Of a DNA stretch of 64,000 bases, positions 14,381-64,000 are shown piece after piece. The position numbers and the translations under genes are program-made. The DNA comes from Megaleporinus macrocephalus (taxonomy: Eukaryota; Chordata; Actinopteri; Characiformes; Anostomidae), in contig CM038716.1 in NCBI GenBank assembly GCA_021613375.1, positions 10,867,667 through 10,931,666 on the forward strand, written 5' to 3'. Each line of letters starts with the position of its first letter. The stretch's first letter is position 1. The notes under the pieces were generated by a model, which saw nothing but the letters and a program-made list of their open reading frames with translations, was not told the origin of the DNA and ran no database searches.

Positions 14381-14963
14381 CCATGCTTCTCTTTGAAAAA
14401 CTTGCTATTTTATGTGAGAATGTGATGCTAAGTTTTCTAAACTGAACAATCACAAGTTCATTAAATACTGATAGAATTCTGTCCTCCACATTTTCATTGA
14501 ATCATTGTAAAGTTTCATTTACTGTTTTTATAAACAGATATAATATATTCTGTATACAGTATATAGGTATTGGGTAGAACTGAGTTAAGTATATTAGTCT
14601 GGTCCTCTAAAACCATTCCAGTTCCTCATGTGGCCCCATGGGAAAATGAATTGCCCCCCCTGTTCTGTGAGGTGATGAAATGAAGCTACAGCGAGTCTGA
14701 TTGTCAGTCTGATTCACATGAACTGCTCAAATCTGAGAAGTGAGAAGTAAACACAGCAGCGTCGCTCTGATTCACTACATGAAGCCCATTAACTGTAGCC
14801 TCACATTCATTTACCAACAGAGACCTCCACAGAGTGTCCAACATTCCGCTGTGATGTCACTACAGAGGCCGTGTGACGTCATAGAGGTGAAGATGTACGG
14901 AGTTCCGCGCGTCTCAGTGTGAAATCAGTCTGTGCTGAAGCGTCGAAGGAGAGAGGAGGAAAA
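14381..14963 (+). promoter_or_regulatory. 5' flank and likely core promoter of gene A
   Basis: This 583-base segment has exactly the same length before genes A, B and C. It includes TGATGTCA at 14852-14859 and a perfect CRE, TGACGTCA, at 14874-14881, then GTTCCGCGCGTCTCAG just upstream of the start codon. TGACGTCA is the consensus for CREB/ATF factors. No clear TATA box was seen near these sites. Promoter use is inferred; the possibility that this is an exon preceded by the CCAACAG acceptor near 14820 remains. Confidence 0.5.
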
Positions 14964-15213
14964 ATGAGCTGGAGAAAGTTTTGCTGTTGTGGAGGAGGAG
15001 ATAGAGAGAGTGAGGAGGAGGAGGAGCACAGAAAGGAAGGAGAACATATTGAGAAGAAAGAGAAAGGAAAGAGGAGGAGGAGAGAGAGAGAGTGGAGTTT
15101 CTCTAGGAGAGAGGAGGAGAGGGAGACTCCACTACAGGAGAGCGTGACTGTGCTGATGGAGGAAGCCGAGACAGAGCCGGTGGACATCAGCACAGAGACT
15201 GAGCAGCTTCTGA
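14964..15213 (+). CDS. Gene A exon 1: Cys cluster and charged N-terminus
   Basis: The start ATG at 14964 is preceded by GAGGAAAA and is the first ATG in frame; a GTG at 14919 is in frame upstream but is not a likely eukaryotic start. It encodes 83 residues: MSWRKFCCCGGG, then an acidic run, a KGKRRRRERE basic run, and an acidic end EPVDISTETEQLL. The donor GTGAGT follows at 15214, leaving phase 1. Confidence 0.8.
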
Positions 15214-18200
15214 GTGAGTAGATGAGTCGACGTCACTAGAATTAACAGTAGTTACTGAACAAGTCAGTGATTCTCAGTACGTACTGAATAAATCAGAGTA
15301 CAGCGCTGGATACACTTTACTTTAGTGTAGGGGGGCTTAACCAATTTTAAACACTCTGGTGGTCGGCCAATCAGAACAGAGTGTGTGAACTGACCATTAG
15401 GAGCATATTAAGCTCAGTGGGAGGCGGGGCTTAAAGACATTTAGTGAAGGGGTGGAAGTTAGAGCCAATGCTGGGTGAACCAACCAATCAGAGCAGGGTA
15501 AATGTTAGGTTTAAGACGTGAGAGTGAATGTGTGAGTGTTTAGGGGTTAATGTTAATGTTAGGTAAGGTTAAGTGTAGGGTTAATGTTAGGTAGGGTTAA
15601 TTGTAGGGTTAATGTTAATGTTAGGTTAGGTTAAGTTTAGGGTTAATGTTATTGTTAATGTTAGGTAGGGTTAAGTGTAGGGTTCATGTTAATGTTAGGT
15701 GGGGTTAAGTGTAGGGTTCATGTTAATGTTACGTAGGGTTAAGTGTAGGGTTAATGTTAAGTAGGTGTGAGTGTAGGGTTAATGTTAGGTAGGGTTAAGT
15801 GTAGGGTTATTGTTAATGTTAGGTAGGGTTAAGTGTAGGGTTAATGTTAAGTAGGGTTAAGTTTAAGGTTAATGTTAATGTTAGGTAGGGTTAAGTGTAG
15901 GGTCAATGTTGATGTTAGGTAGGGTTAAGTGTAGGGTTAATGTTAATGTTAGGTAGGGTTAAGTGTAGGGTTAATGTTAATGTTAGGTAGGGTTAAGTGT
16001 AGGGTTAATGTTAGGTAGGGTTAAGTGTAGGGTTAATGTTAGGTAGGGTTAAGTGTAGGGTTAATGTTAATGTTAGGTAGTGTTAAGTGTAGGGTTAATG
16101 TTAATGTTAGGTAGGGTTAAGTGTAGGGTTAATGTTAATGTTAGGTAGGGTTAAGTGTATGGTTAATGTTAATGTTACTCTGTGTTAGTTGTGGTGAATG
16201 TATTTTATTTATTAATATTATTTAATGTTTAATTAAAACAGGAGTTTAATTGATTATTAACTCTAATTCTAAATTCTAAATTAAATAGGCGTCAATACCG
16301 AGACGACTCCTGAACTGCTACAGTCTGAAGATGCTGGACCACCCTCTAGCACCCCTCTGGGTGAGTAGGAGAACCTGTTATCATGATGAACATCATTGTA
16401 TCTCTACATTAACAGAACAAATGCTGATATTATTCATTCTGATATGAATATTAAAGCAGGAGAACAGAGAGCTCCTGGGACCAGTGAGCTCCTGGAGATC
16501 CTGCCGAGGGACGTTGCTGGAGGAGAAGTGGTGGACCAGCATCTTGGTGAGTAAAAGAATCAAACGTTGGATATTGTGATAACGACCCAGCTGGACAGAC
16601 GTTGATATTTATTGATGTTCAAACAGAATCCGAGACCTGTGAGCACACTGAGGAGGAGACCAGAGGAGAAACGCTGCTGGAGGAACCTCCAACCTCCAGC
16701 ACATCTCTGGGTGAGCAGAACTAACTATTAGCATCATGCTAACTCTGTATTGTACAGCACTGGAGAACATTACCAGAACAAACCGGCTGCTGGTGGTCCA
16801 CTCCAGCACACAGTCCTGTCCTGTTGATGTAATAAATGAAGTTTATGAAGACCACCTGAACTCCATCAGGCACTAGTTAAGATTTGGTGATGTCATCATT
16901 TTCTGACTTCACAATGACCATCAGAACTGACCACAAAGTTACTGAACATCTGCTGATCTTCTTAGAATCTGACTCAGGAGCTCCGGTCATGGATGAGGTC
17001 GAGGACACGGGGGTAGGGACTCCTATGACCCCTGTGTCCTCCCACGTAGATCACCCTGTCCAGTCCTTCGGTAAGTAACGGAAATGACCTGTGGAAATAT
17101 ATCAAGTATGAAAATAACACAGCTGGACGACTGACAGTGTTTATTAATGTGAAAGACGACCAGAAGATGATGACCATCGTCAGGGTGATCTCTGCAGCAG
17201 ACGCATTCAGATACCTGTTGGAGAACATGCAGGTATCTGAACTGCAGAACCTCAAGTTCCCTCCGGGTGAGTAAAAGAAGAACTCACTACAAAAACTACA
17301 TTCAGACAAAAGCAGAAACATGAATATCTTAATATCTCTCAACATCTCACTCTCACTGAATATCTTCTACAAACATCAGCGAACAACACCAACGCCCTGA
17401 TCGAGGCCGCCTGTGAGGTAGTTCTTGTGCTGCTGCAGAGACTCGCATTCTCACCTGACCAGCACCTGAGTGAGTAAAGCACATAAACACTAAATATTAA
17501 AGATGATACTAAAGACTTCACAGACAACATGTCCATGTGGGGCCCGTATGGTTCTTATCTGGCCTGTATGGGTTTCACGTGGGCTTGTAGGGGCTTTTTG
17601 ATTGGTGATACATGGAGCCCCGCTGGGTTATAACTTTTTGCCCCGTTTGGGTTACAGTTGTGAGTCCCACTTAGGCTACTTAGGCCCAAAGTCATGGCAC
17701 TGTTTACATGGTTGATTGTTCACTTGGGCCCATCTTGCAGTCCGGATCGGCCCTAGTTATTGGTCCACATTGACAAACACACACAGGGCCCGTATGAAGG
17801 CAATGGACAAATCTCTGTGGGCCCCTACCAGGTTGCCCCAAGTGGACCCAATCGGCAGCCCATCTTTAACTGATGTGGGGTCCACATGAACATGTTAGCT
17901 GGGTCAGTAAATATCAGATCTGCTGATACTCAGAGCTTCAATATCAGGATCAGCATCTTCACCAGGTTCTGTGATGATGTAGCTGCTGAACGTCTGCTGA
18001 TGTTTATTTCTATTAAATCAGTTAACAAGGTGCTGGCGGTGATGCGAACAGTTCCTGAGTTTGCTGATGCCGGGGTGCTGTTAACACATCATCTGGACAG
18101 CATCCGAGGATTCACCAGCATGACTTTGGGTGAGTAACAGAACCCAGAACCTTCTCTGACACCAGGGCAGCAGAATAGACTAGGCTGGCGTTGGTCCATT

Positions 18201-20263
18201 CCAGGAGATAGAACTATATCAGTTGATGATGACCACTCAAACTCAGTCAGGCAGCATTTGGTGATGTGACTTGATGATCAGAACCCACCATAATATGACT
18301 GAACATCTGCTGATCCTTTCAGAACCAGGAACTGATGTACAGGTGGGGGTGGATGCAGAGGTGGAGGCCCTGCGTGACATCTTCTGCCCTCACCTGGACA
18401 CTCTGTACATACAGCTCGGTAAGTACCGGAAACGCTCAGTGCAAATATATGAAGAGTGAAAACGATGCAGCTGGAGAACTGACAGTGTGTATCAATGTGA
18501 ATCCAGTGGATGAGATGCTGACAGGGCTGTTGGTCCAGCTGGCTGCTAACGCCCTGATGTACCTCCGTAAGGTGCACGGAGAACCTCCAGGTGAGTCATC
18601 ATAATAACATGCAGGTAAAAGTAGGAATCATGTTTAACGTTAACATGAACCTGTTTTCATTCATTCTTTCTAAATGAACTAGTGAACAACAACGAGTCCA
18701 GGGCCGACATCATTGCCCAGGCCCTGGATAGCATCCTGGAGGAGCTCGTCACCGGGAGGGATCAGCATCTCAGTGAGTAAAGCTAATGAGCACCAGAAAC
18801 TAAAGATAGAGCCCATGTGGTAACAGCTGGTGGTCTCAGACTGATATGAGCAGAAAGAGCTGATCATCTTTAGAGCTTAAGAAGTAGTAACATCAGATCA
18901 GCTGATCCTCAAGTCTTCAATATCAGTATCACCATCTTTACTAGGTTCTGTGATGAAGACTCAGCTGAACAACTGCTAATATTTATTTCTATTAAATCAG
19001 TCCACGACTTCCTGTGCTTGATGTCCTCGGCGCCTGACTACCGGGACATTGTGGAGGTGCTGGCGCCCCTACTCGACTCCGCCAGGGCATATTACTGTGG
19101 ATGTCTGGGTGAGTAGAAGAACCTAGTAGCTTGATGATCATCATCTTAATAACTGAGAATGTGTAAAGAACTGCTAATGTTTCATCAGGATTTATTAGTT
19201 AGTTATTAATATTCATCTGAACTCATACTGATTCTGCTCGGACTCGTTTTACGAGGTGACTCTGAGTCCAGTTTGTACCCGAGTCAGGTCCAACCACAGT
19301 GATGGATCTGGACAGCTGGTGATGTTTCTTCATGTTACAGCACAAGACCAGACTGAGGAGGTGGAGGAACATGGAGCTTCGGCTGAGTCCAGCATGGTTG
19401 ATGTAAAGAGGACGGCACCTAAAATTCAGCCGCCTCAACCACCTCAACCACCTCAGCCACCTCAGCCATCTAAGCCATGTCAGCCACCCCAGCAGCCTCA
19501 GCCACCTCAGCCATCTAAGCCACGTCATCCGCCTCAGCCACCTCAGACGCCTCAGCAACGTCAGCAGCGTCAACCACGTCAGCTGCCTCAACGTCCTCAG
19601 CCATCTCCACCACGTCAGCCACCTCAGTCATCTCGGGGTGAGTAAAGAAAACAGATCTCAGATTCTGTTTACATGAACATACACTCTTACAAAAAAAGGT
19701 ACTTCCTCAGATCTTGGGTTGGATATACGACTCTAGAGATAAACTTTCACTGGTAGTGGAGCTTCTACAAGGTTCTTCATGCTCACACGTCTGTTTAAAC
19801 GTTCTTCAGGAAACTAAAAGTACTTCTACAGTAACTACACACTGATACTAACATGAGTGTAACTGCATTTGTAGCTCACAGAGACGGTCCTGGGGTGCAG
19901 CCTCCTCCTCATCCACGGACTGACAGCCAACATAGATCCAGGCACCAGTCCGAAGTTCAGTGGACGCATCGGCACCAGGGACAGAGACCACCTAGAGTGC
20001 CGAGACACCAGTGGGAGGAGGCCACTGAGAGATACCCCGGATACCCGACCAGACAGGAGGTCACTGATCCGTGGACCTGGAGACAACATGGTCCCAGACA
20101 TCAGACCCAGAACCCAAAGTCAAAAGGACCCAATCACCGTCCTAATGATGGATATGCTCCTCCACAAAGGGAGAGAGGCGGTTTTGGAGGAAGAGGGAGG
20201 CGTGGTGGAGGCCGAGGACAGAAGAGACCCGACTGGTGGCAGCACGACAACAGATGGCTATGA
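14964..20263 (+). CDS. Gene A: 14-exon gene of unrecognised fish family
   Basis: Spliced reading gives 656 codons plus TGA from 14 exons: 14964-15213, 16289-16360, 16460-16546, 16627-16710, 16966-17070, 17156-17266, 17380-17469, 18022-18129, 18323-18418, 18507-18590, 18683-18772, 19001-19108, 19341-19637, 19875-20263. All borders are GT-AG and every exon junction is phase 1. The product starts MSWRKFCCCGGG, then has acidic and Lys/Arg-rich stretches (to about residue 83), short repeated exon modules (84-428), a Pro/Gln-rich segment (about 429-527) and a basic tail with GGFGGRGRRGGGRG and a final WWQHDNRWL. No signal peptide or membrane span is evident; adjacent cysteines near the N-terminus could be lipid-modified. 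I do not recognise the family and assign no function. Two paralogues follow on the same strand, which argues the frame is real. Confidence 0.75.
15538..16180. repeat. Intron 1 minisatellite of gene A (29/35 bp, TAGGGTTA-rich)
   Basis: Units of GTTAATGTTAGGTAGGGTTA followed by AGTGTAGGG, with an optional extra TTAATG giving two period lengths. The same array lies in intron 1 of B (26325-26940) and C (39455-39705). TAGGGTTA resembles vertebrate telomere repeats but is not a pure TTAGGG array. Confidence 0.92.
16289..16360 (+). CDS. Gene A exon 2
   Basis: Twenty-four codons, phase 1 at both ends, between AAATAG and GTGAGT. The translation ends SEDAGPPSSTPLG. Exon 4 ends with the similar LLEEPPTSSTSLG, and their nucleotide ends also align, so the two are probable duplicates. 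Confidence 0.75.
16460..16546 (+). CDS. Gene A exon 3
   Basis: Twenty-nine codons, phase 1-1, acceptor TTAAAGCAG and donor GTGAGT. The translation contains TSELLEILPRDVAGGEVV and ends DQHLG, echoing the DQHLS ends of exons 7 and 11. Confidence 0.75.
16627..16710 (+). CDS. Gene A exon 4
   Basis: Twenty-eight codons, phase 1-1, donor GTGAGC (the only GTGAGC in the gene). An acidic ESETCEHTEEETRGE segment is followed by the exon-2-like end. Copy C carries a cluster of substitutions at the start of this exon (EAQACEH). Confidence 0.75.
16966..17070 (+). CDS. Gene A exon 5 (module 1, first exon)
   Basis: Thirty-five codons, phase 1-1, donor GTAAGT. The preceding intron ends CTGAACATCTGCTGATCTTCTTAG, closely matching the intron before exon 9, which also uses a GTAAGT donor. 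This marks exons 5 and 9 as paralogous. Confidence 0.75.
17156..17266 (+). CDS. Gene A exon 6 (module 1, second exon)
   Basis: Thirty-seven codons, phase 1-1. The acceptor was placed at AATGTGAAAG by comparison with exon 10, whose intron aligns with this one through CAGCTGGA, CTGACAGTGT and ATCAATGTGAA. The translation contains SAADAFRYLLENMQ and ends PPG, as exon 10 does. Confidence 0.65.
17380..17469 (+). CDS. Gene A exon 7 (module 1, third exon)
   Basis: Thirty codons, phase 1-1. The translation includes ALIEAACEVVLVLLQRL, a likely amphipathic helix, and ends SPDQHLS. Exon 11 has the same length and shares the NN start and DQHLS end. Confidence 0.75.
17526..17896. mobile_element. ~371-bp element with inverted ends in intron 7, copy A
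   Basis: The left end AACATGTCCATGTGGGGCCC and the reverse complement of the right end (AACATGTTCATGTGGACCCC) match at all but a few positions. There is no coding capacity, and GGGCCC-type words run throughout. It is present at the same site in B (28298-28672) and C (41062-41436) but absent from intron 11, the paralogue of intron 7. This is a miniature inverted-repeat type insertion; the family is not assigned. Confidence 0.65.
18022..18129 (+). CDS. Gene A exon 8 (module 1, fourth exon)
   Basis: Thirty-six codons, phase 1-1, acceptor TCTATTAAATCAG. The translation begins INKVLAVMRTVPEFAD and ends in LG. Exon 12 has the same length, the same acceptor stretch, and shared I, L, M, P, VL, LDS.R and LG positions. 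Confidence 0.75.
18323..18418 (+). CDS. Gene A exon 9 (module 2, first exon)
   Basis: Thirty-two codons, phase 1-1, donor GTAAGT. The translation contains DAEVEALRDIFCPHLDTLY. It is paralogous to exon 5 by flanking intron and donor type. Confidence 0.75.
18507..18590 (+). CDS. Gene A exon 10 (module 2, second exon)
   Basis: Twenty-eight codons, phase 1-1, acceptor GTGAATCCAG. The translation contains MLTGLLVQLAANALMYL and ends in GEPPG. It is the paralogue of exon 6. Confidence 0.75.
18683..18772 (+). CDS. Gene A exon 11 (module 2, third exon)
   Basis: Thirty codons, phase 1-1. The translation contains DIIAQALDSILEELVTG and ends DQHLS. It is the paralogue of exon 7. Confidence 0.75.
19001..19108 (+). 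CDS. Gene A exon 12 (module 2, fourth exon)
   Basis: Thirty-six codons, phase 1-1, with the TCTATTAAATCAG acceptor shared with exon 8. The translation contains DIVEVLAPLLDSARAYYCG. It is the paralogue of exon 8. Confidence 0.75.
19341..19637 (+). CDS. Gene A exon 13: Pro/Gln-rich low-complexity exon
   Basis: Ninety-nine codons, phase 1-1. An acidic start (DQTEEVEEHGAS) is followed by PKIQPPQPPQPPQPP-type repeats, then Gln/Arg-rich QQRQQRQPRQLPQRPQ and a PPQSSRG end. The same exon is 81 codons in B and 105 in C, always a multiple of three, with differences confined to the repeat. Confidence 0.75.
19875..20263 (+). CDS. Gene A exon 14: basic RGG-containing C-terminus
   Basis: The acceptor ATTTGTAG is followed by about 129 codons ending in TGA at 20263. 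The translation is rich in Arg, Gln, Pro and His, with repeated RHQ words, then ERGGFGGRGRRGGGRGQKR and a tryptophan-rich end. RGG/RG tracts in other proteins bind RNA and are arginine-methylated; that role is only suggested here. The exon has the same length in A, B and C. Confidence 0.75.
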
Positions 20264-22206: not shown

Positions 22207-22368
22207 CTCGTGTTTCTATTGGAGAACACTGGCATGTACATCACACACCCATGTACCAGTTACCTGAACCCAGCGCTCACAGGTGAACACACGTCTGGCT
22301 GAACTTTAGAAATCAGCACCTGAGCTCCATAAAGAAAACACAGGTTCCACATCTTGGTTGGTACAACA

Positions 22369-24956: not shown

Positions 24957-25255
24957 TGTGAGGATTTGAGTGAGTGTTAGTGAGGTCAGGTACTGATGTT
25001 GAACATTGCTGTGAGGATTTGATTGAGTGTTAGTGAGGTCAGGTACTGATGTTGAACATTGCTGTGAGGATTTGATTGAGTGTTAGTGAGGTCAGGTACT
25101 GATGTTGAACATTGCTGTGAGGATTTGATTGAGTGTTAGTGAGGTCAGGTACTGATGTTGAACATTGCTGTGAGGATTTGATTGAGTGTTAGTGGGGTCA
25201 GGTACTGATGTTGAACATTACTGTGAGGATTTGATTGAGTGTTAGTGGGGTCAGG
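24957..25255. repeat. 53-bp minisatellite, upstream of gene B (about 5-6 units)
   Basis: The same unit and right border as the array at 12776-14380, but short. Confidence 0.95.
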
Positions 25256-25838: not shown

Positions 25839-28800
25839 ATGAGCTGGAGAAAGTTTTGCTGTTGTGGAGGAGGAGATAGAGAGAGTGAGGAGGAGGAGGA
25901 GCACAGAAAGGAAGGAGAACATACTGAGAAGAAAGAGAAAGGAAAGAGGAGGAGGAGAGAGAGAGAGTGGAGTTTCTCTAGGAGAGAGGAGGAGAGGGAG
26001 ACTCCACTACAGGAGAGCGTGACTGTGCTGATGGAGGAAGCCGAGACAGAGCCGGTGGACATCAGCACAGAGACTGAGCAGCTTCTGAGTGAGTAGATGA
26101 GTCGACGTCACTAGAATTAACAGTAGTTACTGAACAAGTCAGTGATTCTCAGTACGTACTGAATAAATCAGAGTTCAGCGCTGGATACTCTTTACTTTAG
26201 TGTAGGGGGGCTTAACCAATTTTAAACACTCTGGTGGTCGGCCAATCAGAACAGAGTGTGTGAACTGACCAATCAGAGCAGGGTTAATGTTAGGTTTACG
26301 ACGTGAGAGTGAATTGGTAAGTGTTAAGGGTTAATGTTAATGTTAGGTAAGGTTATGTGTAGGGTTAATGTTAGGTGGGGTTGAGTGTAGGGTTAATGTT
26401 AGGTAGTGTTAAGTGTAGGGTTAATGTTAGGTTAGGTTAAGTGTAGGGTCAATGTTAATGTTAGGTTAGGTTAAGTGTAGGGTTAATGTTAATGTTAGGT
26501 AGGGTTGAGTGTAGGGTTAATATTAGTGTTAGGTAGGGTTAGGTGTAGGGTTAATGTTAATGTTAGGTAGTGTTAAGTGTAGGGTTAATATTAGTGTTAG
26601 GTAGGGTTAGGTGTAGGGTTAATGTTAATGTTAGGTAGTGTTAAGTGTAGGGTTAATGTTAATGTTAGGTAGTGTTAAGTGTAGGGTTAATATTAGTGTT
26701 AGGTAGGGTTAGGTGTAGGGTTAATGTTAATGTTAGGTAGGGTTGAGTGTACGGTTAATGTTAATGTTAGGTAGTGTTAAGTGTAGGGTTAATATTAGTG
26801 TTAGGTAGGGTTAGGTGTAGGGTTAATGTTAATGTTAGGTAGTGTTAAGTGTAGGGTTAATGTTAGTGTTAGGTAGGGTTAAGTGTAGGGTTAATGTTAA
26901 TGTTAGGTAGGGTTGAGTGTAGGGTTAATGTTAAGGTTACTCTGTGTTAGTTGTGGTGAATGTATTTTATTTATTAATATTATTTAATGTTTAATTAAAA
27001 CAAGAGTTTAACTGATTATAAACTCTAATTTGTCTAAATGATTCAATTCTAATTTAAATAGGCGTCAATACCGAGACGACTCCTGATCTGCTACAGTCTG
27101 AAGATGCTGGACCACCCTCTAGCACCCCTCTGGGTGAGTAGGAGAACCTGTTTTCATGATGAACATCATTGTATCTCTACATTAACAGAACAAATGCTGA
27201 TATTATTCATTCTGATATGAATATTAAAGCAGGAGAACAGAGAGCTCCTGGGACCAGTGAGCTCCTGGAGATCCTGCCGAGGGACGTTGCTGGAGGAGAA
27301 GTGGTGGACCAGCATCTTGGTGAGTAAAAGAATCAAACGTTGGATATTGTGATAATGACCCAGCTGGACAGACGTTGATATTTATTGATGTTCAAACAGA
27401 ATCCGAGACCTGTGAGCACACTGAGGAGGAGACCAGAGGAGAAACGCTGCTGGAGGAACCTCCAACCTCCAGCACATCTCTGGGTGAGCAGAACTAACTA
27501 TTAGCATCATGCTAACTCTGTATTGTACAGCACTGGAGAACATTACCAGAACAAACCGGCTGCTGGTGGTCCACTCCAGCACACAGTCCAGTCCTGTTGA
27601 TGTAATAAATGAAGTTTATGAAGACCACCTGAACTCCATCAGCACTAGTTAAGATTTGGTGATGTCATCATTTTCTGACTTGACAATGACCATCAGAACT
27701 GACCACAAAGTTACTGAACATCTGCTGATCTTCTTAGAATCTGACTCAGGAGCTCCGGTCGTGGATGAGGTTGAGGACACGGGGGTAGAAACTCCTGAGA
27801 CCCCTGTGTCCTCCCACGTAGATCACCCTGTCCAGTCCTTCGGTAAGTAACGGAAATGACCTGTGGAAATAAATCAAGTATGAAAATAACACAGCTGGAC
27901 GACTGACAGTGTTTATTAATGTGAAAGACGACCAGAAGGTGATGACCATCGTCAGGGTGATCTCTGCAGCAGACGCATTCAGATACCTGCTGGAGAACAT
28001 GCAGGTATCTGAACTGCAGAACCTCAAGTTCCCTCCGGGTGAGTAAAAGAAGAACTCACTACAAAAACTACATTCAGACAAAAGCAGAAACATGAATATC
28101 TTAATATCTCTCAACATCTCACTTTCACTGAATATCTTCTACAAACATCAGCGAACAACACCAACGCCCTGATCGAGGCCGCCTGTGAGGTAGTTCTTGT
28201 GCTGCTGCAGAGACTCGCATTCTCACCTGACCAGCACCTGAGTGAGTAAAGCACATAAACACTAAATATTAAAGATGATACTAAAGACTTCACAGACAAC
28301 ATGTCCATGTGGGGCCCGTATGGTTCTTATCTGGCCTTTATGGGTTTCACGTGGGCTTGTAGGGGCTTTATGATTGGTGATACATGGAGCCCCGCTGGGT
28401 TATAACTTTTTGCCCCGTTTGGGTTACAGTTGTGAGTCCCACTTAGGCTACTGTTGGGGGCCCAAAGTCATGGCACTGTTTACATGGTTGATTGTTCACT
28501 TGGGCCCATCTTGCAGTCCGGATCGGCCCTAGTTATTGGTCCACATTGACAAACACACACAGGGCCCGTATGAAGGCAATGGACAAATCTCTGTGGGCCC
28601 CTACCAGGTTGCCCCATGTGGACCCAATCGGCAGCCCGTCTTTAACTGATGTGGGGTCCACATGAACATGTTGGCTGGGTCAGTAAATATCAGATCTGCT
28701 GATACTCAGAGCTTCAATATCAGAATCAGCATATTCACCAGGTTCTGTGATGATGTAGCTGCTGAACATCTGCTGATGTTTATTTCTATTGAATCAGTTA

Positions 28801-34988: not shown

Positions 34989-35151
34989 CCTCGTGTTTCT
35001 ATTGGAGAACACTGGCATGTACATCACACACCCATGTACCAGTTACCTGAACCCAGCGCTCACAGGTGAACACACGTCTGGCTGAACTTTAGAAATCAGC
35101 ACCTGAGCTCCATAAAGAAAACACAGGTTCCACATCTTGGTTGGCACAACA

Positions 35152-46375: not shown

Positions 46376-46749
46376 GTAACTGTAACTATGCAGTGATGTA
46401 TATATTAATATATAATATTGTTTAATCTGTGTTTGTATGTATCTATGTGTAAACATATGTTCTGATTCTAAACTCCACCTGATCCAGTTTAGAAAGTGTT
46501 TTTAGTGTTAATCAGTTTTACAAGTGTTCAGCTTTACAGTCATACGAGTCTTTTATTAGTATCTACTGAAGTTAATAATCAACCACACACTTTTACAGCT
46601 TTTACACTCACTGACCCCCAAAAACTGATACTTGTAGCACAATTATGATAATTAGTAACTCATGTAGTCTCTCCATTGTCCTGGTCCACTAAACCATAAA
46701 TACATTCTCTACCTTAACATTCATTTATCAACACTGAACACACTTTTAC
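46376..46749. other. Spacer between 61-bp and 37-bp arrays, unit C
   Basis: Conserved counterpart of 20991-21324. No gene was seen. Confidence 0.6.
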
Positions 46750-49700
46750 ACTCAACACACTTCCTACATCACATACATCATTAAACACTGAACACACTTC
46801 CTACATCACATACATAATTAAACACTGAACACACTTCCCACATCACATACATCATTAAACACTGAACACACTTCCTACATCACATACATCATTAAACACT
46901 GAACTCACTTCCTACATCACATACATCATTAAACACTGAACACACTTCCTACATCACATACATCATTAAACACTGAACTCACTTCCTACATCACATACAT
47001 CATTAAACACTGAACACACTTCCTACATCACATACATCATTAAACACTGAACTCACTTCCTACATCACCTACATCATTAAACACTGAACACACTTCCTAC
47101 ATCACATACATCATTAAACACTGAACTCACTTCCTACATCACCTACATCATTAAACACTGAACACACTTCTTACATCACATACATCATTAAACACTGAAC
47201 ACACCTCCTACATCACCTACATCACTAAACACTGAAAACACTTCCTACATCACATACATCACTAAACACTGAACACACTTCCTACATCACATACATCATT
47301 AAACACTGAACACACTTCCTACATCACATACATCATTAAACACTGAACACACCTCCTACATCACCTACATCACTAAACACTGAACACACTTCCTACATCA
47401 CCTACATCACTAAACACTGAACACACTTCCTACATCACATACATCATTAAACACTGAACTCATTTTCTACATCACATACATCACTAAACACTGAACACAC
47501 TTCCTACATCACATACATCATTAAACACTGAACACAATTCCTACATCACATACATCATTAAACACTGAACACACTTCCTACATCACATACATCATTAAAC
47601 ACTGAACACACTTCCTACATCACATACATCATTAAACACTGAACACACTTCCTACATCACATACATCATTAAACACTGAACACACTTCCTACATCACATA
47701 CATCACTAAACACTGAACACACTTCCTACATCACATACATCATTAAACACTGAACACAATTCCTACATCACATACATCATTAAACACTGAACACACTTCC
47801 TACATCACATACACCATTAAACACTGAACACACTTCCTACATCACATACATCATTAAACACTGAACACACTTCCTACATCACATACATCATTAAACACTG
47901 AACACACATCCTACATCACATACATCATTAAACACTCAACACACTTCCCACATCACATACATCATTAAACACTCAACACACTTCCTACATCACATACATC
48001 ATTAAACACTGAACACACTTCCTACATCACATACATCATTAAACACTGAACACACTTCCTACATCACATACAACATTAAACACTGAACACACTTCCTACA
48101 TCACATACATCATTAAACACTGAACACACCTCCTACATCACATACATATCTAAACACTGAACACACTTCCTACATCACATACATCACTAAACACTGAACA
48201 CACTTCCTACATCACATACATCATTAAACACTGAACACACATCCTACATCACATACATCATTAAACACTCAACACACTTCCTACATCACATACATCACTA
48301 AACACTGAACACACTTCCTACATCACATACATCATTAAAGACTGAACACACTTCCTACATCACATACATCACTAAACACTGAACACACTTCCTACATCAC
48401 ATACACCACTAAACACTGAACACACTTCCTACATCACATACATCATTAAACACTCAACACACTTCCTACATCACATACGTCATTAAACACTGAACACACT
48501 TCCTACATCACATACGTCACTAAACACTGAACACACATCCTACATCACATACATCATTAAACACTCAACACACTTCCTACATCACATACATCATTAAACA
48601 CTCAACACACATCCTACATCACATACATCATTAAACACTCAACACACTTCCTACATCACATACATCATTAAACACTGAACACACTTCCTACATCACATAC
48701 ATCATTAAACACTGAACACACTTCCTACATCATATACATCATTTAACACTGAACACACTTCCTACATCACATACATCACTAAACATTAAAGACACTTACT
48801 ACATCACATAGATTATTAAACACTGAACACACTTTCTACATCACATACATCACTAAACACTGAACACACCTCCTACATCACATACATCACTAAACACTGA
48901 ACACACTTCCTACATCACATACATCATTAAAGACTGAACACACTTCCTACATCACATACATCACTAAACACTGAACACACTTCCTACATCACATACACCA
49001 CTAAACACTGAACACACTTCCTACATCACATACATCACTAAACACTGAACACACTTCCTACATCACATACATCATTAAACACTCAACACACTTCCTACAT
49101 CACATACATCACTAAACACTGAACACACTTCCTACATCACATAAATCATTAAACACTGAACATAATTCCTACATCACATACATCATTAAACACTGAACAC
49201 ACTTCCTACATCACATACATCATTAAACACTCAACACACTTCCTACATCACATACATCATTAAACACTCAACACACTTCCTACATCACATACATCATTAA
49301 ACACTCAAAACACTTCCTACATCACATACATCATTAAACACTCAACACACTTCCTACATCACATACATCATTAAACACTGAACACACTTCCTACATCACA
49401 TACATCATTAAACACTCAACACACTTCCTACATCACATACATCACTAAACACTGAACAAACTTCCTACATCACATACATCACTAAACACTGAACACACTT
49501 CCTACATCACATACATCATTAAACACTCAACACACTTCCTACATCACATACATCATTAAACACTCAACACACTTCCTACATCACATACATCATTAAACAC
49601 TCAACACACTTCCTACATCACATACATCATTAAACACTCAACACACTTCCTACATCACATACATCATTAAACACTGAACACACTTCCTACATCACATACA

Positions 49701-52700
49701 TCATTAAACACTGAACACACTTCCTACATCATATACATCATTTAACACTGAACACACTTCCTACATCACATACATCACTAAACACTAAACACACTTACTA
49801 CATCACATAGATTATTAAACACTGAACACACTTTCTACATCACATACATCACTAAACACTGAACACACCTCCTACATCACATACATCACTAAACACTGAA
49901 CACACTTTCTACATCACATACATCATTAAAGACTGAACACACTTCCTACATCACATACATCACTAAACACTGAACACACTTCCTACATCACATACACCAC
50001 TAAACACTGAACACACTTCCTACATCACATACATCACTAAACACTGAACACACTTCCTACATCACATACATCATTAAACACTCAACACACTTCCTACATC
50101 ACATACATCACTAAACACTGAACACACTTCCTACATCACATACATAATTAAACACTGAACACACTTCCTACATCACATACATCATTAAACACTGAACACA
50201 CTTCCTACATCACATACACCATTAAACACTGAACAAACTTCCTACATCACCTACATCATTAAACACTGAACACACTTCCTACATCACATACATCACTAAA
50301 CACTGAACACACTTCCTACATCACATACATCACTAAACACTGAACACACTTTCTACATCACATACATCATTAAACACTGAATACACTTCCTACATCACAT
50401 ACATAATTAAACACTGAACACACTTCCTACATCACATACATCACTAAACACTGAACACACCTTATACATCACATACATCATTAAACACTGAACACACATC
50501 CTACATCACATACATCATTAAACACTCAACACACTTCCTACATCACATACATCATTAAACACTCAACACACTTCCTACATCACATACATCATTAAACACT
50601 GAATACTCTTCCTACATCACATACATCATTAAACACTGAACACACTTCCTACATCACATACATCACTAAACACTGAACACACTTCCTACATCACATACAT
50701 CATTAAACACTCAACACACTTCCTACATCACATACATCACTAAACACTGAACACACTTCCTACATCACATACATCATTAAACACTGAACACAATTCCTAC
50801 ATCACATACATCATTAAACACTGAACACACTTCCTACATCACATACACCATTAAACACTGAACAAACTTCCTACATCACATACATCATTAAACACTGAAC
50901 ACACTTCCTACATCACATACATCACTAAACACTGAACACACTTCCTACATCACATACATCACTAAACACTGAACACACTTTCTACATCACATACATCATT
51001 AAACACTGAATACACTTCCTACATCACATACATAATTAAACACTGAACACACTTCCTACATCACATACATCACTAAACACTGAACACACTTCCTACATCA
51101 CATACATCACTAAACACTGAACACACCTTATACATCACATACATCATTAAACACTGAACACACATCCTACATCACATACATCATTAAACACTCAACACAC
51201 TTCCTACATCACATACATCATTAAACACTCAACACACTTCCTACATCACATACATCATTAAACACTGAACACACATCCTACATCACATACATCATTAAAC
51301 ACTCAACACACTTCCCACATCACATACATCATTAAACACTCAACACACTTCCTACATCACATACATCATTAAACACTGAACACACTTCCTACATCACATA
51401 CATAATTAAACACTGAACACACTTCCTACATCACATACATCATTAAACACTGAACACACTTCCTACATCACATACATCATTAAACACTGAACACACTTCC
51501 TACATCACATACATATCTAAACACTGAACACACTTCCTACATCACATACATCACTAAACACTGAACACACTTCCTACATCACATACATCACTAAACACTG
51601 AACACACTTCCTACATCACATACATCATTAAACACTGAACACACATCCTACATCACATACATCATTAAACACTGAACACACTTCCTACATCACATACATC
51701 ATTAAACACTCAACACACTTCCTACATCACATACATCATTAAACACTGAACACACTTCCTACATCACATACATCATTAAACACTGAACACACTTCCTACA
51801 TCATATACATCATTTAACACTGAACACACTTCCTACATCACATACATCACTAAACACACTTACTACATCACATAGATTATTAAACACTGAACACACTTTC
51901 TACATCACATACATCACTAAACACTGAACACACCTCCTACATCACATACATTACTAAACACTGAACACACTTCCTACATCACATACATCATTAAAGACTG
52001 AAAACACTTCCTACATCACATACATCACTAAACACTGAACACACTTCCTACATCACATACACCACTAAACACTGAACACACTTCCTACATCACATACATC
52101 ACTAAACACTGAACACACTTCCTACATCACATACATCATTAAACACTCAACACACTTCCTACATCACATACATCACTAAACACTGAACACACTTCCTACA
52201 TCACATACATCATTAAACACTGAACACAATTCCTACATCACATACATCATTAAACACTGAACACACTTCCTACATCACATACATCATTAAACACTGAACA
52301 CACTTCTTACATCACATACATCATTAAACACTGAACACACTTCCTACATCACATACATCATTAAACACTGAACACACTTCCTACATCACATACATCATTA
52401 AACACTGAACACACTTCCTACATCACATACATCATTAAACACTGAACACACTTCCTACATCACATACATCACTAAACACTAAACACACTTACTACATCAC
52501 ATAGATTATTAAACACTGAACACACTTCCTACATCATATACATCATTTAACACTGAACACACTTCCTACATCACATACATCACTAAACACTAAACACACT
52601 TACTACATCACATAGATTATTAAACACTGAACATACTTTCTACATCACATACATCACTAAACACTGAACACACCTCCTACATCACATACATCACTAAACA

Positions 52701-55700
52701 CTGAACACACATCCTACATCACATACATCATTAAACACTGAACACACTTCTTACATCACATACATCATTAAACACTCAACACACTTCCTACATCACATAC
52801 ATAATTAAACACTGAACACACTTCTTACATCACATACATCACTAAACACTGAACACACATCCTACATCACATACATAATTAAACACTGAACACACTTCTT
52901 ACATCACATACATCATTAAACACTGAACACACTTCCTACATCACATACATCATTAAACACTGAACACACTTCTTACATCACATACATCACTAAACACTGA
53001 ACACACATCCTACATCACATACATAATTAAACACTGAACACACTTCTTACATCACATACATCATTAAACACTGAACACACCTCCTACATCACATACATCA
53101 CTAAACACTGAACACACATCCTACATCACATACATCATTAAACACTGAACACACTTCTTACATCACATACATCATTAAACACTGAACACACTTCTTACAT
53201 CACATACATCATTAAACACTGAACACACTTCCTACATCACATACATCATTAAACACTGAACACACTTCTTACATCACATACATCACTAAACACTGAACAC
53301 ACATCCTACATCACATACATCATTAAACACTGAACACACTTCTTACATCACATACATCACTAAACACTGAACACACATCCTACATCACATACATCATTAA
53401 ACACTGAACACACTTCTTACATCACATACATCACTAAACACTGAACACACTTCCTACATCACATACATCATTAAAGACTGAACACACTTCCTACATCACA
53501 TACATCACTAAACACTGAACACACTTCCTACATCACATACATCACTAAACACTGAACACACTTCCTACATCACATACATCATTAAACACTGAACACACTT
53601 CCTACATCACATACATCATTAAACACTGAACACACTTCCTACATCACATACATCATTAAACACTGAACACACCTCCTACATCACCTACATCACTAAACAC
53701 TGAACACACTTCCTACATCACATACACCACTAAACACTGAACACACTTCCTACATCACATACATCACTAAACACTGAACACACCTCCTACATCACATACA
53801 TCACTAAACACTGAACACACCTCCTACATCACATACATCACTAAACACTGAACACACTTTCTACATCACATACATCATTAAAGACTGAACACACTTCCTA
53901 CATCACATACATCATTAAACACTCAACACACTTCCTACATCACATACATCATTAAACACTGAACACACTTCCTACATCACATACATCATTAAACACTCAA
54001 CACACTTCCTACATCACATACATCACTAAACACTGAACAAACTTCCTACATCACATACATCACTAAACACTGAACACACTTCCTACATCACATACATCAT
54101 TAAACACTCAACACACTTCCTACATCACATACATCATTAAACACTCAACACACTTCCTACATCACATACATCATTAAACACTCAACACACTTCCTACATC
54201 ACATACATCATTAAACACTCAACACACTTCCTACATCACATACATCATTAAACACTGAACACACTTCCTACATCACATACATCATTAAACACTGAACACA
54301 CTTCCTACATCATATACATCATTTAACACTGAACACACTTCCTACATCACATACATCACTAAACACTAAACACACTTACTACATCACATAGATTATTAAA
54401 CACTGAACACACTTTCTACATCACATACATCACTAAACACTGAACACACCTCCTACATCACATACATCACTAAACACTGAACACACTTTCTACATCACAT
54501 ACATCATTAAAGACTGAACACACTTCCTACATCACATACATCACTAAACACTGAACACACTTCCTACATCACATACATCACTAAACACTGAACACACTTC
54601 CTACATCACATACATCATTAAACACTCAACACACTTCCTACATCACATACATCACTAAACACTGAACACACTTCCTACATCACATACATAATTAAACACT
54701 GAACACACTTCCTACATCACATACATCATTAAACACTGAACACACTTCCTACATCACATACACCATTAAACACTGAACAAACTTCCTACATCACCTACAT
54801 CATTAAACACTGAACACACTTCCTACATCACATACATCACTAAACACTGAACACACTTCCTACATCACATACATCACTAAACACTGAACACACTTTCTAC
54901 ATCACATACATCATTAAACACTGAATACACTTCCTACATCACATACATAATTAAACACTGAACACACTTCCTACATCACATACATCACTAAACACTGACA
55001 CACCTTATACATCACATACATCATTAAACACTGAACACACATCCTACATCACATACATCATTAAACACTCAACACACTTCCTACATCACATACATCATTA
55101 AACACTCAACACACTTCCTACATCACATACATCATTAAACACTGAATACTCTTCCTACATCACATACATCATTAAACACTGAACACACTTCCTACATCAC
55201 ATACATCACTAAACACTGAACACACTTCCTACATCACATACATCATTAAACACTCAACACACTTCCTACATCACATACATCACTAAACACTGAACACACT
55301 TCCTACATCACATACATCATTAAACACTGAACACAATTCCTACATCACATACATCATTAAACACTGAACACACTTCCTACATCACATACACCATTAAACA
55401 CTGAACAAACTTCCTACATCACATACATCATTAAACACTGAACACACTTCCTACATCACATACATCACTAAACACTGAACACACTTTCTACATCACATAC
55501 ATCATTAAACACTGAATACACTTCCTACATCACATACATAATTAAACACTGAACACACTTCCTACATCACATACATCACTAAACACTGAACACACTTCCT
55601 ACATCACATACATCACTAAACACTGAACACACCTTATACATCACATACATCATTAAACACTGAACACACATCCTACATCACATACATCATTAAACACTCA

Positions 55701-58700
55701 ACACACTTCCTACATCACATACATCATTAAACACTCAACACACTTCCTACATCACATACATCATTAAACACTGAACACACATCCTACATCACATACATCA
55801 TTAAACACTCAACACACTTCCCACATCACATACATCATTAAACACTCAACACACTTCCTACATCACATACATCATTAAACACTGAACACACTTCCTACAT
55901 CACATACATAATTAAACACTGAACACACTTCCTACATCACATACATCATTAAACACTGAACACACTTCCTACATCACATACATCATTAAACACTGAACAC
56001 ACTTCCTACATCACATACATATCTAAACACTGAACACACTTCCTACATCACATACATCACTAAACACTGAACACACTTCCTACATCACATACATCACTAA
56101 ACACTCAACACACTTCCTACATCACATACATCCTTAAACACTGAACACACATCCTACATCACATACATCGTTAAACACTGAACACACTTCTTACATCACA
56201 TACATCATTAAACACTCAACACACTTCCTACATCACATACATCATTAAACACTGAACACACTTCCTACATCACATACATCATTAAACACTGAACACACTT
56301 CCTACATCATATACATCATTTAACACTGAACACACTTCCTACATCACATACATCACTAAACACACTTACTACATCACATAGATTATTAAACACTGAACAC
56401 ACTTTCTACATCACATACATCACTAAACACTGAACACACCTCCTACATCACATACATTACTAAACACTGAACACACTTCCTACATCACATACATCATTAA
56501 AGACTGAAAACACTTCCTACATCACATACATCACTAAACACTGAACACACTTCCTACATCACATACACCACTAAACACTGAACACACTTCCTACATCACA
56601 TACATCACTAAACACTGAACACACTTCCTACATCACATACATCATTAAACACTCAACACACTTCCTACATCACATACATCACTAAACACTGAACACACTT
56701 CCTACATCACATACATCATTAAACACTGAACACAATTCCTACATCACATACATCATTAAACACTGAACACACTTCCTACATCACATACATCATTAAACAC
56801 TGAACACACTTCTTACATCACATACATCATTAAACACTGAACACACTTCCTACATCACATACATCATTAAACACTGAACACACTTCCTACATCACATACA
56901 TCATTAAACACTGAACACACTTCCTACATCACATACATCATTAAACACTGAACACACTTCCTACATCACATACATCACTAAACACTAAACACACTTACTA
57001 CATCACATAGATTATTAAACACTGAACACACTTCCTACATCATATACATCATTTAACACTGAACACACTTCCTACATCACATACATCACTAAACACTAAA
57101 CACACTTACTACATCACATAGATTATTAAACACTGAACATACTTTCTACATCACATACATCACTAAACACTGAACACACCTCCTACATCACATACATCAC
57201 TAAACACTGAACACACATCCTACATCACATACATCATTAAACACTGAACACACTTCTTACATCACATACATCATTAAACACTCAACACACTTCCTACATC
57301 ACATACATAATTAAACACTGAACACACTTCTTACATCACATACATCACTAAACACTGAACACACATCCTACATCACATACATAATTAAACACTGAACACA
57401 CTTCTTACATCACATACATCATTAAACACTGAACACACTTCCTACATCACATACATCATTAAACACTGAACACACTTCTTACATCACATACATCACTAAA
57501 CACTGAACACACATCCTACATCACATACATAATTAAACACTGAACACACTTCTTACATCACATACATCATTAAACACTGAACACACCTCCTACATCACAT
57601 ACATCACTAAACACTGAACACACATCCTACATCACATACATCATTAAACACTGAACACACTTCTTACATCACATACATCATTAAACACTGAACACACTTC
57701 TTACATCACATACATCATTAAACACTGAACACACTTCCTACATCACATACATCATTAAACACTGAACACACTTCTTACATCACATACATCACTAAACACT
57801 GAACACACATCCTACATCACATACATCATTAAACACTGAACACACTTCTTACATCACATACATCACTAAACACTGAACACACATCCTACATCACATACAT
57901 CATTAAACACTGAACACACTTCTTACATCACATACATCACTAAACACTGAACACACTTCCTACATCACATACATCATTAAAGACTGAACACACTTCCTAC
58001 ATCACATACATCACTAAACACTGAACACACTTCCTACATCACATACATCACTAAACACTGAACACACTTCCTACATCACATACATCATTAAACACTGAAC
58101 ACACTTCCTACATCACATACATCATTAAACACTGAACACACTTCCTACATCACATACATCATTAAACACTGAACACACCTCCTACATCACCTACATCACT
58201 AAACACTGAACACACTTCCTACATCACATACACCACTAAACACTGAACACACTTCCTACATCACATACATCACTAAACACTGAACACACCTCCTACATCA
58301 CATACATCACTAAACACTGAACACACCTCCTACATCACATACATCACTAAACACTGAACACACTTTCTACATCACATACATCATTAAAGACTGAACACAC
58401 TTCCTACATCACATACATCACTAAACACTGAACACACTTCCTACATCACATACACCACTAAACACTGAACACACTTCCTACATCACATACATCACTAAAC
58501 ACTGAACACACTTCCTACATCACATACATCATTAAACACTGAACACACTTCCTACATCACATACATCATTAAACACTGAACTCACTTCCTACATCACATA
58601 CATCATCAAACACTCAACACACTTCCTACATCACATACATCATTAAACACTGAACACACTTCCTACATCACATACATCACTAAACACTGAACACACTTCC

Positions 58701-59580
58701 TACATCACATACACCATTAAACACTGAACACACTTCCTACATCACATACATCACTAAACACTGAACACACTTCCTACATCACATACATCACTAAACACTG
58801 AACACACTTCCTACATCACATACACCATTAAACACTGAACACACTTCCTACATCACATACATCATTAAACACTGAATACTCTTCCTACATCACATACATC
58901 ACTAAACACTGAACACACTTCCTACATCACATACATCATTAAACACTGAACACACCTCCTACATCACATACATCATTAAACACTGAACACACTTCCTACA
59001 TCACATACATCATTAAACACTGAACTCACTTCCTACATCACATACATCATTAAACACTCAACACACTTCCCACATCACATACACCATTAAACACTGAACA
59101 CACTTCCTACATCACATACATCATTAAAGACTGAACACACTTCCTACATCACATACATCATTAAACACTGAACACACTTCCTACATCACATACATCATTA
59201 AACACTGAACACACCTCCTACATCACATACATCATTAAACACTGAACACACTTCCTACATCACATACATCATTAAACACTGAACTCACTTCCTACATCAC
59301 ATACATCATTAAACACTCAACACACTTCCTACATCACATACATCATTAAAGACTGAACACACTTCCTACATCACATACATCATCAAACACTCAACACACT
59401 TCCGACATCACATACATCATTAAACACTGAACTCACTTCCTACATCACATACATCATCAAACACTGAACACACTTCCTACATCACATACATCATTAAACA
59501 CTCAACACAATTCCTACATCACATACATCATTAAACACTGAACACATTTCCTACATCACATACATTATTAAACACTGTAC
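46750..59580. repeat. 37-bp satellite, copy C (about 347 units, 12.8 kb)
   Basis: One continuous array of the CTTCCTACATCACATACATC / ATTAAACACTGAACACA unit. It has many diagnostic variants (CACTAAACAC, CATTAAAGAC, TACACCACT, TACATAATT, CATAGATTATT, CATATACATCATTTAAC). These recur in the same order over long distances, showing higher-order structure. It has no genes and no open frames of note. Confidence 0.97.
49320..58415. repeat. ~4.5-kb tandem higher-order duplication inside the 37-bp array
   Basis: The block at about 49320-53905 recurs at about 53905-58415. Rare variants keep a constant offset: CATATACATCATTTAAC at 49729 and 54310 (offset 4581), at 51801 and 56307 (4506), and CATTAAAGACTG near 53461 and 57967 (4506). 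The two offsets differ by about two 37-bp units, so one indel separates the copies. Confidence 0.8.
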
Positions 59581-59744
59581 ACCTCGTGTTTCTATTGGAG
59601 AACACTGGCATGTACATCACACACCCATGTACCAGTTACCTGAACCCAGCGCTCACAGGTGAACACACGTCTGGCTGAACTTTAGAAATTAGCACCTGAG
59701 CTCCATAAAGAAAACACAGGGTCCACATCTTGGTTGGCAGAACA

Positions 59745-61109: not shown

Positions 61110-61131
61110 CTTACAAGCCTATTTTGTTATG

Positions 61132-62547: not shown

Positions 62548-63639
62548 TGAGGATTTGATTGAGTGTTAGTGGGGTCAGGTACTGATGTTGAACATTGCTG
62601 TGAGGATTTGATTGAGTGTTAGTGAGGTCAGGTACTGATGTTGGACATTGCTGTGAGGATTTGATTGAGTGTTAGTGGGGTCAGGTACTGATGTTGAACA
62701 TTGCTGTGAGGATTTGATTGAGTGTTAGTGAGGTCAGGTACTGATGTTGGACATTGCTGTGAGGATTTGATTGAGTGTTAGTGAGGTCAGGTACTGATGT
62801 TGAACATTGCTGTGAGGATTTGATTGAGTGTTAGTGAGGTCAGGTACTGATGTTGGACATTGCTGTGAGGATTTGATTGAGTGTTAGTGGGGTCAGGTAC
62901 TGATGTTAAACATTGCTGTGAGGATTTGATTGAGTGTTAGTGAGGTCAGGTACTGATGTTGGACATTGCTGTGAGGATTTGATTGAGTGTTAGTGAGGTC
63001 AGGTACTGATGTTGAACATTGCTGTGAGGGTTTGATTGAGTGTTAGTGAGGTCAGGTACTGATGTTGAACATTGCTGTGAGGATTTGATTGAGTGTTAGT
63101 GGGGTCAGGTACTGATGTTGAACATTGCTGTGAGGATTTGATTGAGTGTTAGTGAGGTCAGGTACTGATGTTGAACATTGCTGTGAGGATTTGATTGAGT
63201 GTTAGTGAGGTCAGGTACTGATGTTGGACATTGCTGTGAGGATTTGATTGAGTGTTAGTGGGGTCAGGTACTGATGTTGGACATTGCTGTGAGGATTTGA
63301 TTGAGTGTTAGTGAGGTCAGGTACTGATGTTGGACATTGCTGTGAGGATTTGATTGAGTGTTAGTGGGGTCAGGTACTGATGTTGAACATTGCTGTGAGG
63401 ATTTGATTAAGTGTTAGTGGGGTCAGGTACTGATGTTGAACATTGCTGTGAGGATTTGATTGAGTGTTAGTGGGGTCAGGTACTGATGTTGAACATTGCT
63501 GTGAGGATTTGATTAAGTGTTAGTGAGGTCAGGTACTGATGTTGAACATTGCTGTGAGGATTTGATTGAGTGTTAGTGAGGTCAGGTACTGATGTTGAAC
63601 ATTGCTGTGAGGATTTGATTGAGTGTTAGTGGGGTCAGG
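62548..63639. repeat. 53-bp minisatellite, upstream of gene D (about 20 units)
   Basis: The same unit, with GATGTTGGACATT and GATGTTGAACATT variants alternating, and the same right border. Confidence 0.95.
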
Positions 63640-64000
63640 CCATGCTTCTCTTTGAAAAACTTGCTCTTTTATGTGAGAATTTGATGCTAAGTTTTCTAAA
63701 CTGAACAATCACAAGTTCATTAAATACTGATAGAATTCTGTCCTCCACATTTTCATTGAATCATTGTAAAGTTTCATTTACTGTTTTTATAAACAGATAT
63801 AATAGATTCTGTATACAGTATATAGGTATTGGGTAGAACTGAGTTAAGTATATTAGTCTGGTCCTCTAAAACCATTCCAGTTCCTCATGTGGCCCCATGG
63901 GAAAATGAATTGCCCCCCCTGTTCTGTGAGGTGATGAAATGAAGCTACAGCGAGTCTGATTGTCAGTCTGATTCACATGAACTGCTCAAATCTGAGAAGT
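63640..64000 (+). promoter_or_regulatory. 5' flank of a fourth gene copy (D), cut by window end
   Basis: The first 361 bases match the 583-base flank of genes A-C almost exactly. By spacing, the start codon would lie near position 64223, outside the window. The CRE-like sites are not reached. Confidence 0.85.

Follow-up and report, generated by a model that had tools for sequence, protein, structure and literature searches.

Introns more alike than exons between copy groups of a tandem gene family in the fish Megaleporinus macrocephalus

Why should the introns of paralogous genes be more alike than the exons that they separate? The question is raised by a stretch of 64,000 nucleotides from the Megaleporinus macrocephalus genome (contig C15, positions 10867667-10931666 of a 1.28-Gb assembly; here called the window), which carries three complete copies, A, B and C, of a tandemly repeated 14-exon gene and the upstream flank of a fourth, D. 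When copies from different groups are aligned, the exons of the predicted helical domain, exon 8 above all, have diverged far beyond the introns, and this holds for silent as well as for replacement sites. In the explanation that we prefer, and to which we give about an even chance of being right in full, the copies exchange DNA, their variable exons are kept distinct, and the product is a recognition or conflict protein.

The gene copies and the size of the family

Copy A was spliced by hand and its exons were transferred to B and C by alignment. The three copies lie on the same strand, and the 14 exons of each join into a single open frame; all 39 of the 39 introns (13 per copy) are GT-AG and in phase 1. 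Only exon 13 varies in length among them (297, 243 and 315 bp in A, B and C), the other 13 exons being equal, and across the copies measured it spans 162-663 bp. Exon 13 is a 9-bp coding minisatellite that changes by whole units, so the frame is kept automatically. Exon 1 of copy D (locus L009) starts 223 bp past the window end; all 14 of its exons are open and the gene is complete.

14964..20263, + strand: gene copy A, 653 amino acids, one open frame, all introns GT-AG and phase 1
Copy A exons 1-7, + strand: 14964-15213, 16289-16360, 16460-16546, 16627-16710, 16966-17070, 17156-17266, 17380-17469
Copy A exons 8-14, + strand: 18022-18129, 18323-18418, 18507-18590, 18683-18772, 19001-19108, 19341-19637, 19884-20263
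25839..30995, + strand: gene copy B, 635 amino acids, spliced open frame
Copy B exons 1-7, + strand: 25839-26088, 27062-27133, 27233-27319, 27400-27483, 27738-27842, 27928-28038, 28152-28241
Copy B exons 8-14, + strand: 28798-28905, 29095-29190, 29279-29362, 29455-29544, 29773-29880, 30127-30369, 30616-30995
38874..43826, + strand: gene copy C, 659 amino acids, spliced open frame
Copy C exons 1-7, + strand: 38874-39123, 39825-39896, 39996-40082, 40163-40246, 40502-40606, 40692-40802, 40916-41005
Copy C exons 8-14, + strand: 41562-41669, 41854-41949, 42038-42121, 42214-42303, 42532-42639, 42886-43200, 43447-43826
63640..64000, + strand: upstream flank of copy D, the sole part of D inside the window
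19341..19637, + strand: exon 13 of copy A, Pro/Gln tract of the 9-bp coding repeat
19884..20263, + strand: exon 14 of copy A, RGG tail ending DWWQHDNRWL and the stop codon

A preliminary description of the window had proposed a tandem array of three intact same-strand paralogues with open frames, exon lengths equal except one, and a fourth copy at the window edge, and the array and the gene structure stand as it read them, exon 13 being the exception in length and copy D an intact gene. Its frames of 656, 638 and 662 codons are indeed open, though the lengths exceed those found here by a constant three.

The family extends well beyond the window. The union of two queries placed it at no fewer than 62 distinct places on eight contigs, 34 of them on C15 and 20 on C26, so that these two contigs hold 54. 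A 266-bp query over exons 10-11 had its best 40 of 184 candidate places on C15 (34), C26 (2) and C1, C2, C18 and C24 (one each); for the same stretch of a C26 copy the best 40 of 185 fell on C26 (20), C15 (12), C1 (2), C2 (2) and C6, C11, C18 and C24 (one each). The C15 copies form several arrays in both orientations. We examined 30 copies, namely the three in the window, 26 fetched elsewhere in the genome, and L035; L001-L008, short pieces of copies that already figure under other names, are not counted again. Complete open frames through the 14 exons were found in 20 of the 30 (A, B, C; L009-L018; L022-L026; L028; L031), including 19 of the 23 C15 copies examined, which is more than chance would give. 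The start codon, all splice sites, the phase and the frame of exons 1-12 were intact in 22 of the 22 copies mapped in order, and no two of the 22 codon-aligned copies (21 from C15 and L031) have the same protein sequence over exons 1-12. The copies make up a protein-coding multigene family.

Frame-breaking changes, which the preliminary description had named as something that would speak against its reading, are rare among the copies examined: L030 has decayed, with a stop and shifted exon lengths, and L019 has a frame shift in exon 13. The neighbours L020 and L021 (C15:10.21-10.23 Mb) have lost exons 5-7, and the rest is still open because all introns are in phase 1. The exon 13/14 joins of L027, L032 and L034 are ambiguous, and exon 3 of L032 and L034 mapped out of order; L029 has no exon 1 in the stretch fetched and is open in exons 5-12, L033 is incomplete, and in L035 exon 1 and the last part of exon 13 are missing. 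The exon-14 acceptor was recovered by a motif search in only 4 of 26 copies, exon 14 of the others being placed by alignment. Exon 14 is 87-96 bp shorter in 19 fetched C15 copies (L010-L028) than in A-D, the length of the tail thus varying from array to array as well.

Exon and intron divergence between copy groups

Among A, B and C, exons differ by 1.78-2.34% and introns by 1.50-2.38%. The ratio of replacement to silent divergence (dN/dS), which the preliminary description had proposed as a check, is below 1 at 0.33-0.51 overall, and 0.11-0.51 in the helical part. The window by itself gives modest evidence for selection: it fits selection and is no proof of it. Then, what is seen between copies on different contigs? 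Copy A and the C1 copy differ at 15.43% of 687 positions in exons 6-12 and at 5.72% of 1382 in introns 5-12, with 29.6% for exon 8 and 3.6% for exon 10.

18022..18129, + strand: exon 8 of copy A, the hypervariable exon
18507..18590, + strand: exon 10 of copy A, the least variable of the helical exons
19001..19108, + strand: exon 12 of copy A, which corresponds in the second helical module to exon 8

The excess of exons over introns was repeated in the C26, C2, C24 and C6 copies, with values of 15.14% and 5.43% for A against the C26 copy and 14.85% and 6.13% against the C6 copy. Exon 8 of A lies 27-32% from six copies (on C1, C2, C24, C26 and C6), for which introns 5-12 differ by 4-7%, and for exon 10 the distance to copies on other contigs is 2-6%. 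The excess ends at the splice sites in those exons that were displayed. For exon 8, dN is 0.36 and dS 0.39, against 0.04-0.07 for the introns; exon 12 of A against copies on other contigs has a dS of 0.46 and a dN of 0.09. The alignable flanks and the 5' part of intron 1 are mostly 80-92% identical between contigs, with short pieces up to 94%. The exon 8 dN lies above both the introns and these flanks (about 80-94% identity), which we count in favour of variable exons being kept distinct. An excess of dN over dS across the mature protein was not found, helical-exon dN/dS being 0.41 (21 C15 copies against the C1 copy) and the two values for exon 8 being those just given. Overall, the helical domain is under purifying selection, and the suggestion of the preliminary description that conserved frames point to selection gains support from this larger comparison.

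A milder form of the same pattern is found within C15. Exons 5, 8 and 12 of A lie 8-13% from L014, L025 and L028 of the 11.4- and 12.3-Mb arrays, with 4.7-6.1% for exons 6-12 jointly and 3.1-3.9% for the introns. Among the contigs other than C15 the exon excess is weaker or absent. Silent sites share in the excess: at fourfold sites in unchanged codons, A and the C1 copy differ at 21 of 90, against 79 of 1382 intron positions (Fisher p = 1.4e-7; 15 of 76 at non-CpG sites), and the fourfold excess had p < 0.05 in 14 of 19 pairs.

Trees were built for 25 copies, 21 from C15 and four from other contigs; these trees and the counts of fixed differences omit L020, L021, L030, L033 and L035 and include L029, L032 and L034. 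The stem between C15 and the other contigs measured 0.117 for exons 6-12 and 0.014 for introns, the tip-branch sums were 0.196 for exons and 0.203 for introns, and the whole trees 0.472 and 0.280. Fixed differences were found at 33 of 687 exon sites versus 5 of 799 intron sites, with 138 and 146 polymorphic sites (p = 7.3e-6). Within C15, the 12.3-Mb array compared with the window and 10.1-Mb arrays gave 17 versus 3 fixed and 55 versus 62 polymorphic sites (p = 1.6e-3), and the 11.4- and 12.3-Mb arrays taken jointly gave 7 versus 0 and 74 versus 87 (p = 5.3e-3). Fixed silent changes number about 13 in some 168 silent sites, against the 5 of 799 intron sites (p = 3.3e-7). The mean pairwise difference between C15 and the other copies was 2.7 times as large in exons as in introns (0.142 vs 0.053).

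The protein, its surroundings and possible relatives

Residues 1-197 hold a Cys cluster after MSWRKF, followed by charged, acidic-rich sequence. Residues 198-427 are more hydrophobic and helix-periodic (mean helical moment z 3.0 against shuffles, strand z -0.3), and after residue 427 come the Pro/Gln tract and the basic RGG tail; the C6 copy carries a similar RGG stretch. The best 19-residue hydropathy window is 1.77, at residue 242. The protein does not have the character of a secreted Cys scaffold, the MSWRKFCCC start being followed by charged sequence, as judged without a signal-peptide program. Among eight copies, 21 of 35 positions vary in exon 8 and 6 of 27 in exon 10.

The comparisons within the gene identify exons 5-8 and 9-12 as two old copies of one helical module. 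Exons 7/11 and 8/12 show in-frame protein similarity (z 5 and 6). At the DNA level the module exons are barely recognisable (all pairs at z 6.4 or less, pair 8-12 at z 3.0), while the introns preceding exons 8/12, 6/10 and 5/9 match with z 44.6, 29.1 and 19.6; those preceding exons 7/11 do not match between modules (z 3.6). Identity is 74-82% in chosen segments of introns 5/9 and 7/11, and 44-46% for the exons aligned in codon register; with free gaps, exons reach 60-77% and introns 69-86%. When evolution was simulated from copy A at the intron rate, with dN/dS up to 12, none of 60 runs exceeded a silent difference of 0.578; the observed values are 0.59-0.68. Three details weaken the module comparison: the 7/11 pair drops to z 2.9 without its last six residues, one other frame scores nearly as high for the 8/12 pair of copy C (30 vs 35), and with free gaps intron 6/10 (69-71%) is no more alike than exon 6/10 (73-74%).

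Does the protein belong to a described family? Neither the whole protein nor the modules had a Pfam match up to E 10, NCBIfam gave none, and PDB gave none for the helical region, an invasion protein found with the module profile at E 0.88 being taken as chance. Among 5.8 billion proteins, the whole protein found nothing at E 0.001 (best 7993 candidates scored) and the helical region nothing at E 1 (3667 candidates), in a search that scores only proteins of 0.55-1.75 times the query length sharing exact 5-residue words; the collection may or may not include the annotated proteins of this very genome. As a control, zebrafish MIF4GD found 572 relatives at E 0.001 or better in the same collection, and those named among the 120 listed are nearly all from fish, including a characin and several catfishes. 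The collection is thus rich in fish proteins and the null result informative, the length and word filters aside. No relatives were found among viral contigs, and the literature listings on related topics held nothing on this gene family, no search having been aimed at it directly. The preliminary description had called the family undescribed, and no family in the profile databases it had pointed to was matched; undescribed here means not found by these searches.

It is possible, though we find it doubtful, that the protein belongs to a known helical-repeat family (HEAT, MIF4G or similar), has diverged strongly from it and serves an ordinary role in the cell. Helix periodicity speaks for this, and two-fold helical modules with an RGG tail resemble proteins of RNA regulation. 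MIF4G-domain proteins (MIF4GD, PAIP1, eIF4G), some of which are linked to RNA regulation, have an all-helical repeat domain as well, and P-x-F motifs had suggested membership by eye. That candidate was rejected: our own MIF4GD profile scored -1.0 bits, a value equalled or beaten by 160 of the 420 shuffles that were scored (500 made), and neither Pfam, NCBIfam nor any credible PDB match argues for a known family.

The surroundings of the genes are rich in satellites.

15544..16177, + strand: intron-1 minisatellite of copy A, 34-bp unit (B 26318-26939, C 39454-39702)
12776..14380, no strand: 53-bp satellite at the head of each array unit (also 24957-25255, 37780-38290, 62548-63639)
46748..59582, no strand: 37-bp satellite of 347 units following copy C (shorter arrays at 21325-22206 after A and 33758-34989 after B)

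The 37-bp satellite counts 24 units behind A and 33 behind B against the 347 behind C, and the spacing of the array thus varies by satellite growth. With the intron-1 minisatellite of the C1 copy as query, C1, C2, C6, C7, C15, C23, C26 and C96 were among the matches listed; the similar arrays on C7 (43.5-49.5 Mb), C23 and C96 are possible markers of further gene copies. A literature search found no match to the satellite sequences. Window positions 1-12775 gave no blastn match to 14381-64000 (E 1e-5, low-complexity filter on) and hold other minisatellites, which places the array edge near 12776. Each unit also contains degenerate transposase-like frames (GGRRRLFTPEQQ...), at 22207-23500 and equivalents behind B and C, which are presumably Tc1/IS630-like. 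A, B and C share without change a palindromic TGACGTCA, at 14874-14881 and some 83 bp before the ATG, which we take to be CRE-like.

Copy number, the oppositely oriented C15 arrays, the dispersal over contigs and the satellites would also suit a selfish or germline-amplified family, that is, a meiotic driver, its suppressor or an ampliconic germline gene, in place of a defence gene. Driver families of the wtf type can reportedly persist very long (PMC9562144), which we count on the same side. A poison-antidote architecture was not seen, although none was searched for, and we consider such a family rather unlikely.

What might keep the exons apart

One way to raise silent and replacement changes together is to swap exon stretches in from diverged relatives. 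The block-like exon divergence with its sharp edges, the clustering of fixed changes (9 adjacent pairs against 2.4 expected) and the polymorphic sites shared by both groups, which are commoner in exons, are what such switching would leave. The model is the snake venom three-finger toxin genes described under the name ASSET, in which intron segments are more than 85% alike and exon segments are switched (PMC2474615; PMC2711939). As in those toxins, introns of paralogues in a multigene family are here highly similar and exon segments strongly different, though not in every pair (L031 vs L030). The toxins are short venom proteins of three exons with radical switches, in contrast to 14 exons, no signs of secretion and dispersed substitutions here. 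The substitutions in exon 8 are clustered, but no donor was found, the differences do not look like unrelated segments, and C15 separates from the other contigs in exon and intron trees alike. We therefore judge segment switching unlikely.

Positive selection on amino acids alone, with introns as the neutral background, is very unlikely in our estimate. Venom PLA2 and reproductive proteins are classical families under positive selection, and Nakashima and others are said to have found in 1993 that in venom phospholipases introns are less diverged than silent exon sites. The exon 8 dN of several times the intron divergence would fit, as would the greater share of replacements among fixed than among polymorphic changes (neutrality index 0.5, p = 0.077). 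On the other hand, silent sites are raised too, as in exon 12, where dS far outruns dN, and at fourfold sites, which between C15 and C1 differ four times as much as introns; the silent differences between modules also lie beyond the simulated maximum. The silent excess argues that selection on replacements is not the sole cause. A related system is the habu small serum protein tandem array, analysed by replacement (KA), silent (KS) and intron (KN) divergence, in which some pairs likewise combine low intron divergence with accelerated coding change (PMC6609765). KA/KS there rises to 1.739 for one pair, whereas the helical dN/dS here is below 1 and silent sites exceed introns.

The weakest alternative, that introns are too similar because a noncoding function such as intronic small RNAs constrains them, could appeal to introns 5-12 being 93-96% identical between contigs where most alignable flank and intron-1 pieces are 80-92%, yet it is highly improbable, since similar within-group variation (polymorphic sites in 146 of 799 intron and 138 of 687 exon positions) argues against constraint, the divergence of module-shared introns among A, B and C is close to that of introns in general, and Rfam gave no family at gathering score in the window or up to E 5 in the copy A unit. 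The same Rfam result led us to reject a small nucleolar RNA host gene, which C/D-like motifs in the introns had suggested.

With intron constraint and sole selection on replacements argued against, unequal exchange is left: introns and exon 10 would have been shared among the groups more recently than the variable exons. From the variation within and between groups, the copies probably keep exchanging DNA by gene conversion or unequal crossing-over. Such exchange would homogenise the introns and exon 10, and selection for group-specific sequence would hold the variable exons apart, perhaps aided by exchange failing across diverged stretches; it is possible that either of the two is the cause, and they may act together. 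In the Argiope spider silk MaSp2 genes, repeated introns are homogenised within a gene of exon repeat units, and a role in homogenising coding repeats is proposed for the introns (PMC9779670); here the module exons are instead far more diverged than the introns.

Several observations weigh against exchange combined with exons held apart. Exchange is read indirectly, from the variation within and between groups. A McDonald-Kreitman-type test between paralogues, counted by codon under a wider definition with 41 fixed positions, was suggestive at most, with 28 replacement to 13 silent fixed changes and 81 to 75 polymorphic ones (p = 0.077). Within groups, mean pairwise difference is 1.2-1.5 times higher in exons than in introns, and exons hold more of the sites that vary in both groups than introns do (12 vs 8; 14 vs 4), so that exonic variants are shared too; these sites fit old variants kept in several groups, and also exchange or recurrent exon change. 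The clustering of adjacent fixed changes could also mean segment replacement. Individual introns range widely between A and the C1 copy (1.7-10.4%), the average excess inside C15 is small (4.66% vs 3.88% for A against L014), and L031 and L030 differ more in introns than in exons (7.12% vs 5.70%). For 5 of 19 pairs the fourfold excess falls short of significance (A vs L012, L014 and L025; L012 vs L014; L031 vs L032), and CpG accounts for part of the silent excess.

What might the protein do? Tentatively, with less than even confidence and as a guess from composition, we take it for a factor of recognition or defence that acts inside the cell, or else for a party to intragenomic conflict, because of its copy number, the lack of detectable relatives, the concentration of divergence in exons and a conserved pattern interspersed with variable positions. 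From general knowledge, the Cys-rich N-terminus may tether the protein to a membrane by palmitoylation and the RGG tail may bind RNA; the two helical modules would form a recognition surface whose partner-facing residues change, with the Pro/Gln repeat as a length-variable spacer. The fullest version, in which dozens of exchanging paralogues, with their variable exons held apart one by one, encode lineage-restricted intracellular fish proteins whose two helical modules serve as a variable surface for recognition, and so form a genome-wide recognition repertoire unrelated to known immune receptor families, is unlikely to hold in every part.

Divergence in this family jumps several-fold at the exon/intron boundary, silent sites included, and divergence focused on exons is the kind of pattern seen in genes of evolutionary arms races. 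New defence or conflict systems may be found among large gene families that keep intact frames and lack detectable homologues. The conserved exon 10 and the hypervariable exon 8 within the same gene provide a natural control set, and one genome suffices to ask whether exons of different specificity form a block to exchange between paralogues.

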